A stretch of 41,769 nucleotides of DNA, from NCBI GenBank assembly GCA_947170195.1, contig CAMVSS010000004.1:1-41769 (forward strand). Direction: 5' to 3'. This document shows, in pieces, positions 160 through 12,796 of this stretch. How positions within the stretch are numbered: position 1 is the first letter of the stretch; each line of letters starts with the position of its first letter. A program made the position numbers and the translations under genes. The notes beneath the pieces are model-generated. The model was not told the origin of the DNA, did no database searches, and saw only the letters and a program-made list of their open reading frames with translations. This stretch comes from an uncultured Treponema sp. Lineage in GTDB: Bacteria > Spirochaetota > Spirochaetia > Treponematales > Treponemataceae.

Positions 160-1710
160 TTACGACTTCAGCCATTTTTCGACAGCTTTTCGAACAGACT
201 GCGTTTTAAACTGAACATTCTGGCCCTGAGCGTAAAATCCGTTCTTGAAGCGGCAGCCTGAAAGCTTTGATTTTAGATTCAGCTCGGTCTGCCCGAATCC
301 GTTTCCCTCATGCGTGCAGAACGGAACTATTGTCTTGCCTTTCAAATCCACTGACTCGAAAAAAGTATACATGCACATCGGAAGATCGCCCCACCAGTTC
401 GGATACCCCACATAAATCAGGTTGTAGGCGGAAATGTCCGGAAGCGGCTGAATTTCAGGACGCTCCTCCCTCACCTGCTCTCTCTTTGCAACCGCTTTGC
501 ATTCCTCGTAGCTCTCAGGATAAGGAACCACCGGTTTGATTTCAAAAATATCAGCCCATTCCTTCTCCGCGATTATTTCCGCGAGGATCCGCGTGCTTCC
601 CTTTTCGACGTTTCCAACCTCATAGTTTTCGCCAGCGCGGGAGAAATAGAACACGGCCTTCTTCAGCTTGTTTTCGTTCAGGATTTTTCTGACTACACAA
701 TTCTTTCCGTTTCGCTTTCCGTAGTAAAGCCTGTCGTCGGCATCGCGGATTACAGACTCGTAATCGGAAAGGTTGGTTCCGGTGCACATTCCGACCGTCA
801 TCGTAACTTTTATTTCCTTTCCCTCAAATTCAACTATGGTGCTCCGTACTTTTTCGCACAGTTTTTCCAGATAATCATAGGCTTCGTTTCCGTCAGTCTG
901 CGGCATATAGAGTATGAATTCTTCGCCGCCCCACCTGACGGGGACATAGTTTTCTTTTGCGCAATCCTCGATAATTTTGCTCACTTTTTTTAAAACTTCG
1001 TCTCCGGCCTGATGTCCGTAAGTATCATTGACCTTCTTAAAATCATCTATGTCGAAAAGCGCGATCGTGTACTTGTTTTCGTTCTCGGACTTATTGCGCT
1101 TCATTATGTGCTCAAAAAAACGGCGGTTAAAAAGCCCCGTCAACAAATCGTGGTTGCTCGTGTAATTCAGCTTGTCGTTTACTGTGTTGACCTCAATAAA
1201 ATAAAGGTTGGAAATGTAAAACAACGTGAAGAGAGTTATGAACAGATTAAAAAATCCGATCTGATACTTATAGGACTCGACGATGGATTCATATTGAGGA
1301 AAAAGGGCGAAATGTTTTATCCGAATTATGTAAATCGCGATGGCATATAAAATACCGATTCCCTGAAAAATGTGCTTCATGCGCTTGTTTGGCGGAAGAA
1401 GATAGAAGACCGTGGAAATCATACCGACGACAAAGAAGATATAAAGAAAGGAGCCGCCTGAAAAAAGTTCGCTTATGAACGAAAAAGTGATGATTTCGAA
1501 GTATGTAAAGATTATATAAACATCAGTATGCCGCTTGAAAAGCTTAAGAACCGCGGCGTAAAACGTTGCGCTAAGAACATTCAGAATTGCGAGTGGAAAA
1601 AAACCAAGGAAGTAAAAAACAACCGCATTGATACCGTGCACAAAAAAGCACATTATTAAAAAGAGCAGCGTTTTCTTCTGGGAAAGAAAACTTAGGAAAT
1701 CTTGCATCAT
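160..1710 (-). CDS. Membrane diguanylate cyclase fused to a C-terminal flavodoxin domain
   Basis: Numbering follows the 543-residue track ORF. Residues about 40-200 hold five or six hydrophobic membrane segments. A GGDEF domain spans about 210-368 with an intact GGEEF active-site motif (288-292) and the FDIDDFKKVND metal and nucleotide region (246-256), so it should make cyclic di-GMP from GTP. Without a stop codon the frame continues into a flavodoxin_4-type domain (about 378-543) starting AVFYFSRAGENY and containing GYPNWWGD, which resembles stand-alone FMN flavodoxins of gut bacteria. The track start is not preferred: the ATG at 1710 (residue 28) has a GGAGAG ribosome-binding site five bases upstream. 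A GTG at residue 380 could allow internal translation of the flavodoxin alone. Redox control of the cyclase is inference; a lost stop codon between two neighbouring genes is the alternative. Confidence 0.85.
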   Translation of the reverse strand: MMQDFLSFLSQKKTLLFLIMCFFVHGINAVVFYFLGFFPLAILNVLSATFYAAVLKLFKRHTDVYIIFTYFEIITFSFISELFSGGSFLYIFFVVGMISTVFYLLPPNKRMKHIFQGIGILYAIAIYIIRIKHFALFPQYESIVESYKYQIGFFNLFITLFTLFYISNLYFIEVNTVNDKLNYTSNHDLLTGLFNRRFFEHIMKRNKSENENKYTIALFDIDDFKKVNDTYGHQAGDEVLKKVSKIIEDCAKENYVPVRWGGEEFILYMPQTDGNEAYDYLEKLCEKVRSTIVEFEGKEIKVTMTVGMCTGTNLSDYESVIRDADDRLYYGKRNGKNCVVRKILNENKLKKAVFYFSRAGENYEVGNVEKGSTRILAEIIAEKEWADIFEIKPVVPYPESYEECKAVAKREQVREERPEIQPLPDISAYNLIYVGYPNWWGDLPMCMYTFFESVDLKGKTIVPFCTHEGNGFGQTELNLKSKLSGCRFKNGFYAQGQNVQFKTQSVRKAVEKWLKS

Positions 1711-1878
1711 AAACTCTCCGGAGCATTGGCAGGTTAAGTACTGGCAAAAACGACCTATTCGTGGACATCCATGCTCAATCAAATTTAACACACGTTCCGC
1801 CGATTCCGCAAATTATAATTGACAACAGCGCTTTAAAAGTCTGTTTTGTCCAACATTTACAAATTTTGATGTTTTTTT

Positions 1879-4303: not shown

Positions 4304-6094
4304 TCAGTTTTGCGCGCTTCCCCGGAAATCATCCAGCGACCTGAAGCCTTTGCGTTTCATGTACTCGCGGAGACCTTCGACAATCTCTTTCATCGCAAAA
4401 GGATTTCCAAAAGTGGCTGTTCCGACCTCGATTGCGCTCGCTCCAGCCATTATAAACTCTACGGCATCACGCCAAGTGGAAATTCCGCCAAGGCCAACCA
4501 CGGGTATTCTTTCGCTCTCAGGAAGCTTGTTCATAGCCTGAACTACATCGAACACCATTCGGAGAGCTATCGGTTTTACGGCAGGACCGCTGAATCCGGC
4601 GCGGACATTGTTAAAAACAGGCCTTCCGGTCTCGATATCGATGGACATAGCCTGGAAAGTATTCACCAGACTGATTGCATCCGCGCCCGCTTCCCGGACA
4701 GCCATTGCAATTCCGATCAGGTCGGGAGCATTCGGGCTGAGTTTTACCATGAGCGGCTTTTTAGTGACTGCCCGAACAGCCGACGTGACGCTCGCCGCGC
4801 TAGTGCAGTCCATTCCGAAAGCCATTCCGCCGGCCTTTACGTTCGGGCAGCTGATATTAAGCTCAATCATCGGAACATCTGTCGCGTCAAGCAGCTTTGC
4901 ACCCTCGACATAGGTGTCCAGCGACGAACCGGAGAGATTCGCGATCGTCTTTGTCTTTAATTTGAGCATCGATGGCAGCTCGTGTTCGATAAAATGAGCT
5001 ATTCCCGGGTTCTCAAGTCCGATTGAGTTTATCAAACCTGACGGAGTCTCAACGAGACGAACCCCGCCATTGCCCGGACGTCCCTCAAGCGTAAGCCCCT
5101 TGGAACAAATACCTCCGAGCGTATTCACGTCGAAAAGGTCGCCGTATTCCGAACCATAACCGAATGTTCCGCTCGCCGCAATCACCGGATTTTCAAATCT
5201 GACACCGGCGATACTTGTGCTCATATCCGGGATTTCGTTTTCTTTCAGAGGTTCGCGGCGCGCTGGCTTTGATGCAGGAGGCGTAAAGTCAAGGATCGAG
5301 CCGTCGAAAACAGGGCCGTCCTTGCAGCAACGTTTATTTCCTTCTTTTGTGGAGATTGTGCATCCCAGACATGCGCCGACTCCGCACGCCATTCTGTTCT
5401 CCATGCTGAGATAGCATTTTACATTTGCTTCGGCGCATATTTTCTGAATGTAGGCAAGCATCGGAGTCGGGCCGCAGGCATAAACCACGGTGTATCCCTT
5501 CGAGCGCAGGGTGTCGGCCGTGAGGGCGGCGGTGATCATTCCGTGCACGCCGACAGAGCCGTCATCTGTTGTGACAGTCAATTCGGCCGGATGAACAAAA
5601 TCAAGGCCGTATGAGCCGCTTTTGAAGCTTGCGTAAAAATCGTAGGAATTATCGCCCAGGGTTGAGGCAAAACCGGCCACAGGAGCAACCCCGACGCCGC
5701 CGCCGACAATGCAAACCTTGTCGCTTTCTTTAGGAACCGGGAAAGTGTTTCCCTCAGGCCCGATCAGCTCGATTCCGTCTCCCTCGCAGAGAGAGCAAAG
5801 CTCCTGAGTTCCGGTTCCTTTTTTTAGGATTAAAAATGATATTTGAACTGAATCGCCTTTTTTTTCGGCGGCATAAACGCTGATAGGACGACCAAGAAGG
5901 ACTTCTGATTTGACCGAGCGCAGCATGTAAAACTGCCCCGCAAGCGGAAGATCTCGATTTTTTCCATCAAAATCAACTTTAAGAAGATAAATGCTTCCGA
6001 GAGGACGCGCGCTTTCAACGACTCCGCAGAAACATACTTTTCCAACACCAAAGCTTGGGCGTGGCATACCGTTACAATCAGTCAAGTGTTCCAT
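4304..6094 (-). CDS. pyrD: Dihydroorotate dehydrogenase, PyrK electron-transfer subunit fused to PyrD catalytic subunit
   Basis: Oxidises dihydroorotate to orotate, the fourth step of UMP synthesis, passing electrons to NAD. Numbering follows the 598-residue track ORF. Residues about 20-275 are the PyrK part: FAD motif GRPISVY (70-76), nucleotide-binding VGGGVGVAP (132-140) and a 2Fe-2S cysteine cluster ACGVGACLGC (238-247) plus C258/C259. Residues about 293-590 are a class 1B PyrD with catalytic Cys in NISCPN (C418) and FMN-binding GLGGIS (536-541). In Firmicutes the two are separate subunits; here one chain carries both. The TTG track start and the ATG at 6094 both lack a clear ribosome-binding site, and ATG is preferred. 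It lies about 75 bases after pyrF on the same strand, probably in one transcript. Confidence 0.95.
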   Translation of the reverse strand: MEHLTDCNGMPRPSFGVGKVCFCGVVESARPLGSIYLLKVDFDGKNRDLPLAGQFYMLRSVKSEVLLGRPISVYAAEKKGDSVQISFLILKKGTGTQELCSLCEGDGIELIGPEGNTFPVPKESDKVCIVGGGVGVAPVAGFASTLGDNSYDFYASFKSGSYGLDFVHPAELTVTTDDGSVGVHGMITAALTADTLRSKGYTVVYACGPTPMLAYIQKICAEANVKCYLSMENRMACGVGACLGCTISTKEGNKRCCKDGPVFDGSILDFTPPASKPARREPLKENEIPDMSTSIAGVRFENPVIAASGTFGYGSEYGDLFDVNTLGGICSKGLTLEGRPGNGGVRLVETPSGLINSIGLENPGIAHFIEHELPSMLKLKTKTIANLSGSSLDTYVEGAKLLDATDVPMIELNISCPNVKAGGMAFGMDCTSAASVTSAVRAVTKKPLMVKLSPNAPDLIGIAMAVREAGADAISLVNTFQAMSIDIETGRPVFNNVRAGFSGPAVKPIALRMVFDVVQAMNKLPESERIPVVGLGGISTWRDAVEFIMAGASAIEVGTATFGNPFAMKEIVEGLREYMKRKGFRSLDDFRGSAQN

Positions 6095-6169
6095 GCCCAA
6101 AAGTATAGCACGTAAACAAGAACTTGTTCGAGAGGACTCAAAAATCAGTCCTCCCGAAACATGTCGATA

Positions 6170-7259: not shown

Positions 7260-9584
7260 CTATTTTGCGAAAAAAGCTTCGATTCCGCTCAAGAGGGCTT
7301 CCGCGCGAGCCTCAAGATTTTTGGTGGAGGTGTCAGTGTGCTGATTTCCAAGCTCAATATCCACGGTCGGAATTGTGCTGAAAGAAGTCTGGGTCAAATC
7401 AGTGTCGAGCTTTCCGTCCGCATAAATCGGCAAATCCGCGCTCCTCAAAGCCGCGACCAGCAGCTCTCCGAGCCTCGTGCTTTCAGCGCAATGTTTTTCC
7501 ACATTCTTAAGCTTTCTCAAACCATCAGGGATGCCGCAATAAAAGCAGCCTTTGTCGAATTTTTGTCTGTCTCCGTCAAAATGAATCGAGATATGGATGT
7601 CGGCATAGTTGTTGCAAATCACCGTGCGCGCGATGTTATCGAGCTGAACATCAGCGGAATCACGAATCATCAGCACATCATATCCTTTTTCGAGCAGCTT
7701 GGATTTTAAGATATGAGCTGTCCGAAGATTCACTTCAGCCTCCGTTTTTCCATCTGAAAAAATCATTCCGTCGCTGACAGCAATCGATTCGACTGCGCCC
7801 AAAGGATTTGTCCCTCCGGTAAGCTTAGGCGATCTGTCGGGATGCGAGAAAGTCTTTTCGGATTTGCCGCCAGCCGTACCGTGACCTGCATTCAGCGCGA
7901 CCGTGATGTTTTTTTGCTTTTGCTTTGCAGAATAAAAAACTGCCGAACCGCTGTTGATTTTTGAGAATTCCGCAAACTGCCAGCTCTTGTTAAAGCTGAT
8001 TTTTCGCTTGAAAGAAGCCTCGTCCGCGGTCAGGACAAAACTTTTTGCCTGCGTCAGATTCTCAAGCCATGTCAGACCATTTTTTCTATATACGTCGAGC
8101 GTGTTCACATTTACGGAACAAGCGTCTATTACAGCGGCCTTGCTTTCCTCGCTGTTTTTGTCAAATTTCTGCGGATAATAAGAGCCGAGCGCGCTGATGA
8201 CATAGTTTTTCCCGTTTTCCGAGCCAAGATACATCATCACATGACCGGGAAATCCCAGCACATCGCCGGGAGAGCAGGATGCGAGCACATTTTTTTTCTG
8301 GGCGACGGATTTTTTTGTAAGCTCCTCGGTCTTTCCCGAAACGGAGAGCTGCCCCCGGCTGTTTCTTGGCAGCATGAATCCGAAGCACCTGAATATATCT
8401 TTCAGATATTCTGAGCAATCCCGCGCGCTTTCCATTCCTCCCCAGCCGTAGCGGATTCCCAGCGGCTTAAAGGCAAGGTTCAGCACATTTGCTTCGGTGT
8501 AGTCCAAAAGTCCGCGCGCGCAGCAACCGGCCGGAAACGAAGCGTAGGCTATTCCGAGAGATTCGTCCGCTTTTTTGTAGGGAATCTCAACGAGGTAGCT
8601 CGCATAAGGGATTCGCGGAGAAAAGGAATCTGAAAATTTCGGGTCGTCCCAGTCCGCGGTGTGGAGATACGTTCCCATGAAAAATTCAGGGAGTGTCTTT
8701 TCTTCCTCAGGGATTTTTCCGACCGCATACTCATCGGAAAGAACCAGCCTGTCCACAGTCACCGTAACGAATGACGATGACGGCTGATTTGTGTAATCGA
8801 AATACCTCTGGAATTCTTTTTCCGTGCAGAACGCCACATCCTCGCGGTGGATCCAGCCGGTACAAAAACTGGACTGCACGAAGAACCATTTTTTGTCGGA
8901 ACTTTCCCAAAGCACCAGGACAGGCTCGTTCATCAGGATGCCTGAATTCTGGGCTATGTCGTCGTACCAAAAATCCTGATCGTCGCTGTAAAAATTGTCC
9001 GAGGGAACAAGCCTTATGTTTGCCCTTCGCACGCAAACCGCCTTTCTGACAGGAAAATCACGCAGCTCGGTTTTGTCAGAGCGCGTCGCATTGAGGAAAT
9101 AAGCGGAGCTTCCCAGCTCATTGTAATTCATCAGCTTGTAGAACTTCTGCCAATCAGCCTTTGTCAGCTGGCGGATCTCGCCGTCTTTTTTTTCGTACCA
9201 CGGGTGCCCCGGAGAATACCGCTGCATCGTATACCGAATGTCCTCGTTTGTGATAAAAGAATCAGCCGCACGCAAATCGGTCAGGGCGTAAAGGGATTTT
9301 CCGATGCCGGAATAAACGTGATCAAGCATCAGGTCGTTCCAGACCGAAATCTGCTTTTTTGACATCTTGATCTCATAAGGCTTTTTCGAGCGCAAAATCC
9401 AATAAGATGCGTCCAGCATTTTCTCCGAAACATCGGGAGCAAGCCTGACAATCTTTTTGTCGGAAATTTCGTCGTCCTCGACATCGATCTCCGAACTTCT
9501 TTTTACGGAAGCGCAGGAAAAGAGAACGGCTATGAGCTGTGCAGAAAAAACAAATTTAATAAAACGGTGGTGATTTTTTTTCAT
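7260..9584 (-). CDS. Lipoprotein with NlpC/P60 endopeptidase and N-acetylmuramoyl-L-alanine amidase domains
   Basis: A 774-residue predicted lipoprotein: signal peptide with lipobox ending LFSC24. The region about 180-260 looks like an SH3-type wall-binding domain (GWIHREDV), followed by a second beta-rich segment. An NlpC/P60 domain covers about 360-490, with catalytic Cys in ESARDCSEYL (C390) and His in PGHVMMYLG (H448). A zinc Amidase_3 domain covers about 560-774: NAGHG (H568), TEAEVNL (E617), ISIHFD (H668) and catalytic Glu in TVDIELGNQHT (E744). All key residues of both enzymes are present, so one exported protein could cut both the peptide crosslink or stem (NlpC/P60) and the sugar-peptide bond (amidase). 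Start choice is uncertain because no strong ribosome-binding site precedes it. It follows the acyl-CoA ligase gene by about 100 bases. Confidence 0.9.
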   Translation of the reverse strand: MKKNHHRFIKFVFSAQLIAVLFSCASVKRSSEIDVEDDEISDKKIVRLAPDVSEKMLDASYWILRSKKPYEIKMSKKQISVWNDLMLDHVYSGIGKSLYALTDLRAADSFITNEDIRYTMQRYSPGHPWYEKKDGEIRQLTKADWQKFYKLMNYNELGSSAYFLNATRSDKTELRDFPVRKAVCVRRANIRLVPSDNFYSDDQDFWYDDIAQNSGILMNEPVLVLWESSDKKWFFVQSSFCTGWIHREDVAFCTEKEFQRYFDYTNQPSSSFVTVTVDRLVLSDEYAVGKIPEEEKTLPEFFMGTYLHTADWDDPKFSDSFSPRIPYASYLVEIPYKKADESLGIAYASFPAGCCARGLLDYTEANVLNLAFKPLGIRYGWGGMESARDCSEYLKDIFRCFGFMLPRNSRGQLSVSGKTEELTKKSVAQKKNVLASCSPGDVLGFPGHVMMYLGSENGKNYVISALGSYYPQKFDKNSEESKAAVIDACSVNVNTLDVYRKNGLTWLENLTQAKSFVLTADEASFKRKISFNKSWQFAEFSKINSGSAVFYSAKQKQKNITVALNAGHGTAGGKSEKTFSHPDRSPKLTGGTNPLGAVESIAVSDGMIFSDGKTEAEVNLRTAHILKSKLLEKGYDVLMIRDSADVQLDNIARTVICNNYADIHISIHFDGDRQKFDKGCFYCGIPDGLRKLKNVEKHCAESTRLGELLVAALRSADLPIYADGKLDTDLTQTSFSTIPTVDIELGNQHTDTSTKNLEARAEALLSGIEAFFAK

Positions 9585-11647: not shown

Positions 11648-12796
11648 ATGGATAAAAATAAAACTTTTGTTTCGACTTTGTTTGCCATCGCAATTTTATT
11701 CATCGGAGCATTCGCTTTTGCAGAAGAAGTGTCGGTTTCAAGAAGCGAATCTGCCGTTATGCGTTCAAAACTGGTCGAATACAGCAAAAAATACATCGGT
11801 TCACCGTACGCATCAGGCGGAGTCGGTCCAAATTCCTTCGACTGCTCGGGATTCGTTTTTGCGGTCTCAAGGGAATCCATCAAAGTTCAGCTGCCGCGCA
11901 CCACACGTGCAATCTATTCTTTTTCTACCCCGATAAAAGATTCAGAGCGCGAGGCAGGAGATCTGGTTTTCTTCAAGACGACATCCAGCGGAAACATCTC
12001 GCACGTCGGCATTTACATCGGCAACAATCAGTTCATACACTGCGCGAGCGACGGCCCTAACACAGGCGTAATCGTTTCCTCGCTCAAAGAATCTTATTGG
12101 AAAGCTCACTACTATTGCTCGACACGCTTTTTGCCTGCATCAAAATCTGAGCTTCTGGCTGATAATTCAACAGGCTCAGCTGCGGAAAGTTCTTCTCAAA
12201 AAAAAAATGAATCGTCTGACTCTGCTTCAAAAAGCAGCGGGACGAGCGGCTCTTCCTCATCAAAAACAGCGTCAAATGACGCTCTCGGTGTCAGGATCCT
12301 GCGCCATTTTACGGTAGACGCAAGCGTCATGACCAACTGGAATTTCTACAGCACAAATGGAATCGGGTTGCAGTTCAGGGGCGGCTCTTCCATGGTCAAT
12401 CTGAGCTACAATTCCAAATATGTTCAGCCTGGAATCGGATCAATTTTGTGCTACGACACTCAGACACGGAACCTTCGGCTTCCTTTTGTTCTTTCGGTAT
12501 CTTTTCTGAACTATTTTCGAGTTTATGGCGGACCGGTTTTGTACGTAAAACATCCGCGCGACATAGACGATGATTCCCTGCTCAAACAGTCGATTTTTCC
12601 AGGAATTTTCGGAATTTCCGTTTCTTCTCCGTCAGCAATAATCAAAAAAGCAAGGGTTTGCGTCGTAACGGATCTCAACTACACTGTTTTTAAAAAATGG
12701 GACGGATCGGCGCTCTCTGCAAAAAAAAGCACGTCCACAGGACTTTTGCTTTCGACGGGCGTAAAAGTGACTCTTCCGTTCAATAATCTGTTTTAA
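11648..12796 (+). CDS. Exported NlpC/P60 hydrolase with a C-terminal beta-barrel-like domain
   Basis: Residues 1-25 are a signal peptide ending AFAFA. The NlpC/P60 domain (about 38-160) has the catalytic Cys in FDCSGF (C66), His in ISHVGIYIG (H119) and a third polar residue candidate in FIHCA (H131), so it should cut gamma-D-Glu-diamino acid bonds of peptidoglycan stems. A Ser-rich linker (about 165-210) leads to about 170 residues with alternating hydrophobic strands (GIGLQFRGG, NYFRVYGGPVLYV) ending in the aromatic residue of LPFNNLF, as outer-membrane barrel strands often do. That part is not a family I recognise, and membrane insertion is inference. No good Shine-Dalgarno sequence precedes the ATG, so translation may be leaderless or the start may differ. 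It is divergent from the ligase gene. Confidence 0.85.
   Translation: MDKNKTFVSTLFAIAILFIGAFAFAEEVSVSRSESAVMRSKLVEYSKKYIGSPYASGGVGPNSFDCSGFVFAVSRESIKVQLPRTTRAIYSFSTPIKDSEREAGDLVFFKTTSSGNISHVGIYIGNNQFIHCASDGPNTGVIVSSLKESYWKAHYYCSTRFLPASKSELLADNSTGSAAESSSQKKNESSDSASKSSGTSGSSSSKTASNDALGVRILRHFTVDASVMTNWNFYSTNGIGLQFRGGSSMVNLSYNSKYVQPGIGSILCYDTQTRNLRLPFVLSVSFLNYFRVYGGPVLYVKHPRDIDDDSLLKQSIFPGIFGISVSSPSAIIKKARVCVVTDLNYTVFKKWDGSALSAKKSTSTGLLLSTGVKVTLPFNNLF

Follow-up and report, generated by a model that had tools for sequence, protein, structure and literature searches.

Within the window, by which we mean the whole 41,769-nucleotide stretch of uncultured Treponema DNA that was analysed, a single gene joins two different peptidoglycan hydrolase domains, NlpC/P60 and Amidase_3, in one predicted lipoprotein (Table 1). 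Taking residue comparisons, domain order and gene distribution together, we consider it probable that the product is a dual peptidoglycan hydrolase of accessory status, exported and in most cases anchored by a lipid, that arose by a one-time fusion and supplements a core amidase encoded near flaA. If the predicted activities hold, one protein would cut both the stem peptide and its link to the glycan. The architecture is not a product of chance, since the layout is shared by 21 of 200 genomes from one genus and the catalytic residues are kept in the 18 fusions that could be aligned. Both halves are traceable to separate relatives, and among the genomes sampled the fusion keeps to a single genus. 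Because residue comparisons predict a bond and a substrate form for each half, the benefit of coupling the two cuts can be tested with purified domains.

Table 1. Features of the fused gene and its product; positions are those of the window.
Feature	Residues (aa)	Positions	Strand	Basis
Whole gene, fused NlpC/P60 - Amidase_3 lipoprotein	774 in all	7260..9584	(-)	ORF, Pfam, orthologues
Signal peptide with lipobox VLFS followed by C24		9513..9584	(-)	sequence, read by eye
N-terminal region at the place of the DvLysin c-clip	40-175	9060..9467	(-)	position, partial PnpA profile match; inferred
SH3b1 domain (Pfam SH3_6 209-246; Cys241)	176-262	8799..9059	(-)	Pfam, profile
Probable SH3b2 domain	263-350	8535..8798	(-)	place in DvLysin/PnpA order; inferred
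NlpC/P60 domain	360-516	8037..8507	(-)	Pfam, PDB-sequence match, alignment
NlpC/P60 residues: dyad, third position, substrate site	C390, H448; S464; Y379, W381, D389, S391, R407, N408, S409			
Linker	517-556	7917..8036	(-)	alignment
Amidase_3 domain (zinc H568, E615, H668; catalytic E744)	557-774	7263..7916	(-)	Pfam, alignment, profile
His-Pro-Asp, inside an insertion before the zinc-ligand Glu	581-583	7836..7844	(-)	invariant in amidase subfamily

Translation of the minus strand reproduced the coordinates and strand of the open reading frame given in an earlier, sequence-only reading of this DNA, and placed C390, H448, H568, E617, H668 and E744 at the numbers claimed for them. That reading had described a single exported lipoprotein that carries two kinds of peptidoglycan hydrolase, a description borne out by the lipobox at C24 and by Pfam matches above the curated cut-offs for SH3_6 (E 1e-10), NLPC_P60 (residues 377-456, E 1e-9) and Amidase_3 (PF01520, residues 562-760, E 1.6e-12; 48.3 bits against a cut-off of 27). 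The lipobox Cys, read by eye in the window protein, aligns with a Cys in most orthologues, is absent from two of them (L010 and L031) and is probably absent from a third (L026); export with mostly lipid anchoring is a prediction. Solved structures of the DvLysin/PnpA type run c-clip, SH3b1, SH3b2, NlpC/P60 (PMC7860986), and by position in this order the window protein would contain a c-clip and an SH3b2 domain as well. Neither of these two regions has a Pfam match; the c-clip part has a partial profile match to PnpA, and the SH3b2 part gave no profile match of its own. The wall-binding SH3-type region of the earlier description is present as SH3b1, but its function is drawn too narrowly there, as SH3b1 of the solved relatives lines the active-site groove and is not just a wall anchor (PMC7860986). 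In the linker, the second half (W.FA..SKINSG.A..Y) is common to standalone amidase relatives, which puts the fusion joint near residues 515-527. An AlphaFold2 model built from four sequences reached a pLDDT of 37 and was set aside.

The N-terminal half belongs with the DvLysin/PnpA type, as indicated by the best PDB-sequence matches of the window protein, namely DvLysin (Desulfovibrio vulgaris, 3m1u) and PnpA (Photobacterium, 6sqx); with the NlpC half of 18 orthologues as a profile, these were matched at E 3e-31 and E 5e-20, respectively. Like the fusion, DvLysin, PnpA and the Salmonella enzyme EcgA have SH3b1 followed by NlpC/P60, a Cys-His dyad and the residues that recognise gamma-D-Glu, whereas these three proteins end after the NlpC domain and the fusion continues into Amidase_3. 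The dyad C390-H448 is invariant in 18 of 18 aligned fusions, as are Y379, W381, D389, S391, R407 and S409, the counterparts of the S1-site gamma-D-Glu residues of BcYkfC. The claim of a complete NlpC/P60 set therefore stands for the dyad and falls short at the third residue of the triad. DvLysin and BcYkfC have His at this place and PnpA has Asn, but the window protein has Ser464, outside the accepted set of His, Asn or Gln. Among the 18 fusions, this position is Ser in 16, Asn in one and Gly in one, while nearly all more distant DvLysin-type homologues of the phylum have His in the same column. By virtue of Ser464, the NlpC half is best classed from its residues as a divergent relative of the DvLysin type and not as a canonical member, and its turnover may be low.

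A second set of residues bears on the substrate form. The recycling subfamily of BcYkfC is defined by Asp256 and Tyr118, which restrict it to free peptides (PMC2954226), and recycling enzymes of the YkfC/DPP VI kind need a free L-Ala. In the window protein, alignment places Asn408 at Asp256, as in DvLysin, and Cys241 at Tyr118 (Val in two orthologues), the latter position being matched by aligned sequence and not by structure. With Asn408 and Cys241, the NlpC half lies outside the definition of the YkfC recycling subfamily, and a pure recycling role, one of the uses first suggested for the protein, is weakened. The NlpC half probably cuts the polymeric wall instead, accepting MurNAc-linked stems.

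For the C-terminal half, the proposed zinc amidase set proved right at H568, H668 and E744 and wrong at one position, as the second zinc ligand is E615 and not E617. E617 varies among orthologues (E, D, Q, A or F), whereas all 18 aligned fusions and 30 standalone relatives have E615, which a profile-profile comparison pairs with the REKDVNL Glu of the canonical amidase encoded in this genome. H568, E615, H668 and E744 are all invariant in fusions and standalone relatives alike, and to judge from these residues the Amidase_3 half has the full zinc and catalytic set. Its relatives include standalone Amidase_3 proteins of the type found in the family of Clostridium fessum, which we take to be the Lachnospiraceae (e.g. 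L085, L101 and a protein on contig L078). These share about 45-55% identity with the fusion over domain plus linker, together with the invariant HPD insertion and the same His, Glu, His, Glu set, but they are separate proteins, some with an SH3-like region of their own. The canonical Amidase_3 of the same genome (L001) has the same fold and equivalent zinc and catalytic residues; unlike the fusion, it is a core gene product with an N-terminal Cu_amine_oxidN1-type domain and no HPD insertion.

Degeneration of one domain would undercut the idea of a dual enzyme, and neither domain looks degenerate when Pfam matches and selection are considered. By the NG86 method in six pairs, of which the two most distant are near saturation at synonymous sites, dN/dS was 0.08-0.26 for the amidase domain, 0.09-0.23 for the NlpC domain and 0.05-0.36 for the 40-codon linker. 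Both domains are under strong purifying selection, and no internal stop codon was found in the 18 full-length fusions.

Within the genus, homologues occur in 28 of 200 genomes, 21 with the fusion (three in pieces at contig ends; 18 full-length sequences were aligned) and seven with a short form that stops near query residue 514; the other 172 have no match. No amidase remnant was seen by eye behind four of the short forms (L011, L012, L013 and L034). The amidase subtype was never found on its own in 196 genomes of the genus, being always part of the fusion, and no fusion was found outside the genus among 393 genomes of the phylum, so that within the spirochaetes sampled a single genus has it. 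Of 250 genomes from the Lachnospiraceae-type family, by comparison, 36 encode the amidase and about 17 the NlpC half, always as separate proteins; the three genomes with both are about what chance would give from 36 and 17 of 250. In phylogenetic trees, a single branch parts the standalone amidases from all fusions, and the NlpC halves of the 18 fusions group with three short forms in one fully supported clade. One fusion event with later losses fits these trees, in which the outgroup is distant and the direction is not fixed. The fusion would have arisen by the joining of two proteins that are separate elsewhere, for example in Lachnospiraceae, probably once in the genus.

Three scans of viral contigs gave no relative that would point to a phage origin. 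The one strong match in a phage collection, on MT837134.1 (L078), was set aside because the record reads as a bacterial contig, with genes similar to those for a YchF-type GTPase, Lgt, MraZ and a chemotaxis receptor; the entry carries the label 'Bacteriophage sp.' though it looks bacterial. Among Lachnospiraceae homologues of the NlpC half, one (L040, 4900-7347) has an additional N-terminal DUF3089 and represents another fusion of this module. Three short proteins of the same family, L013, L035 (L128:4483-5910) and L036 (L127:6852-8354), have the catalytic Cys replaced by Ala, Ala and Asp and the His by Phe, Phe and Arg, respectively. Each adjoins an ilvD-like gene (named by eye), and they are likely pseudo-enzymes with a conserved neighbourhood. 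More generally, dual-hydrolase wall enzymes are known but uncommon: an autolysin survey describes pairs such as lysozyme-NlpC and glucosaminidase-NlpC, and in the portion of that survey available to us the NlpC-Amidase_3 pair was absent from the pairs reported (PMC8051824), although unrelated fusions of the two folds may exist elsewhere.

The genomic surroundings of the fusion are variable. In the window, the gene has pyrF on one side and a gene for an AMP-binding enzyme on the other; elsewhere, the fusion is often flanked by a HAD-type phosphatase and a NUDIX-like gene (named by eye) at varying locations, and no neighbour, hence no candidate operon partner, was conserved across all lineages in 15 compared loci. 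These loci also bear on the suggestion that the fusion opens the wall for passage of periplasmic flagella. The organism does have flagellin and FlaA (the latter matched at E 5e-73, in keeping with a spirochaete), but flagellin is present in 191 of 192 genomes of the genus as against about 10% for the fusion, none of the 15 loci has a recognised flagellar gene next to the fusion, and the amidase that does lie near flaA is the other one, L001, found in 95 of 98 genomes of the genus. A flagellar role is therefore very improbable. The same observations, an unconserved context, a core amidase near flaA and near-universal flagellin, mark the fusion as an accessory enzyme.

In the mechanism that we propose, the N-terminal half would act as a DvLysin/PnpA-type cysteine endopeptidase that cuts between gamma-D-Glu and the diamino acid, and the C-terminal half as a zinc amidase that cuts between MurNAc and L-Ala. 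As L-ornithine replaces DAP at position 3 of the treponeme wall (PMC5104382), the endopeptidase is predicted to cut at L-Orn in the wall of the treponeme itself, and it would cut at DAP in many foreign walls. Both cuts on one stem would free the peptide from the glycan and leave it as two pieces, L-Ala-D-Glu and a fragment with the diamino acid. For Chlamydia, the separate proteins AmiA and YkfC are proposed to act in succession on the same two bonds as predicted for the fusion, the amidase and then the YkfC-type enzyme removing first NOD2 and then NOD1 signals (PMC9928106). The fusion might, by analogy, destroy stem peptides such that neither product is immunostimulatory, the amidase removing the MurNAc that NOD2 recognition requires and the endopeptidase breaking the gamma-D-Glu-diamino acid unit that NOD1 recognition requires. 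We regard this as a long shot; if true, the relay proposed for Chlamydia would be merged in one polypeptide of a gut spirochaete.

The accessory dual hydrolase that we favour presupposes that both halves are active. It is unlikely that only the amidase works and that the NlpC half is mainly a peptidoglycan-binding or positioning module: Ser in place of the orienting His at position 464 and the existence of paralogues without catalytic Cys and His (L013, L035, L036), which indicate that the fold can outlive catalysis, would suit such a module, yet none of C390, H448, D389, S391, R407 and S409 varies among the 18 fusions, and the low dN/dS of the NlpC domain fits active-site constraint. With both domains at work, it is quite possible, if short of an even chance, that the protein serves in remodelling and turnover of the organism's own wall during growth and division. 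Amidases and DL-endopeptidases commonly remodel their own cell wall, and an exported lipoprotein acting on a wall with L-Orn at position 3 would be in keeping with this role; against it, the 172 of 200 genus genomes without any match imply that growth and division can generally proceed without the protein. We hold more tentatively to the possibility that the dual hydrolase degrades foreign peptidoglycan, from gut competitors or dead cells, at the cell surface in the manner of secreted PnpA, the closest homologue whose ecological role is known, which attacks the wall of other species (PMC7860986). The patchy accessory distribution, the variable genome context and the presence of a core amidase in the genus all favour such a role, but a lipoprotein could equally remain periplasmic, and secretion genes were not recognised next to the fusion.

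Three further genes of the window have composite or related products. Close to the fusion, 11648-12796 (+) encodes another, canonical NlpC/P60 protein (94 bits), whose C-terminal 220 or so residues have no Pfam match. At 4304-6100 (-), dihydroorotate dehydrogenase and a DHODB iron-sulfur (PyrK-like) electron-transfer part share one open reading frame, and at 160-1791 (-), a GGDEF diguanylate cyclase domain is joined to a flavodoxin domain.
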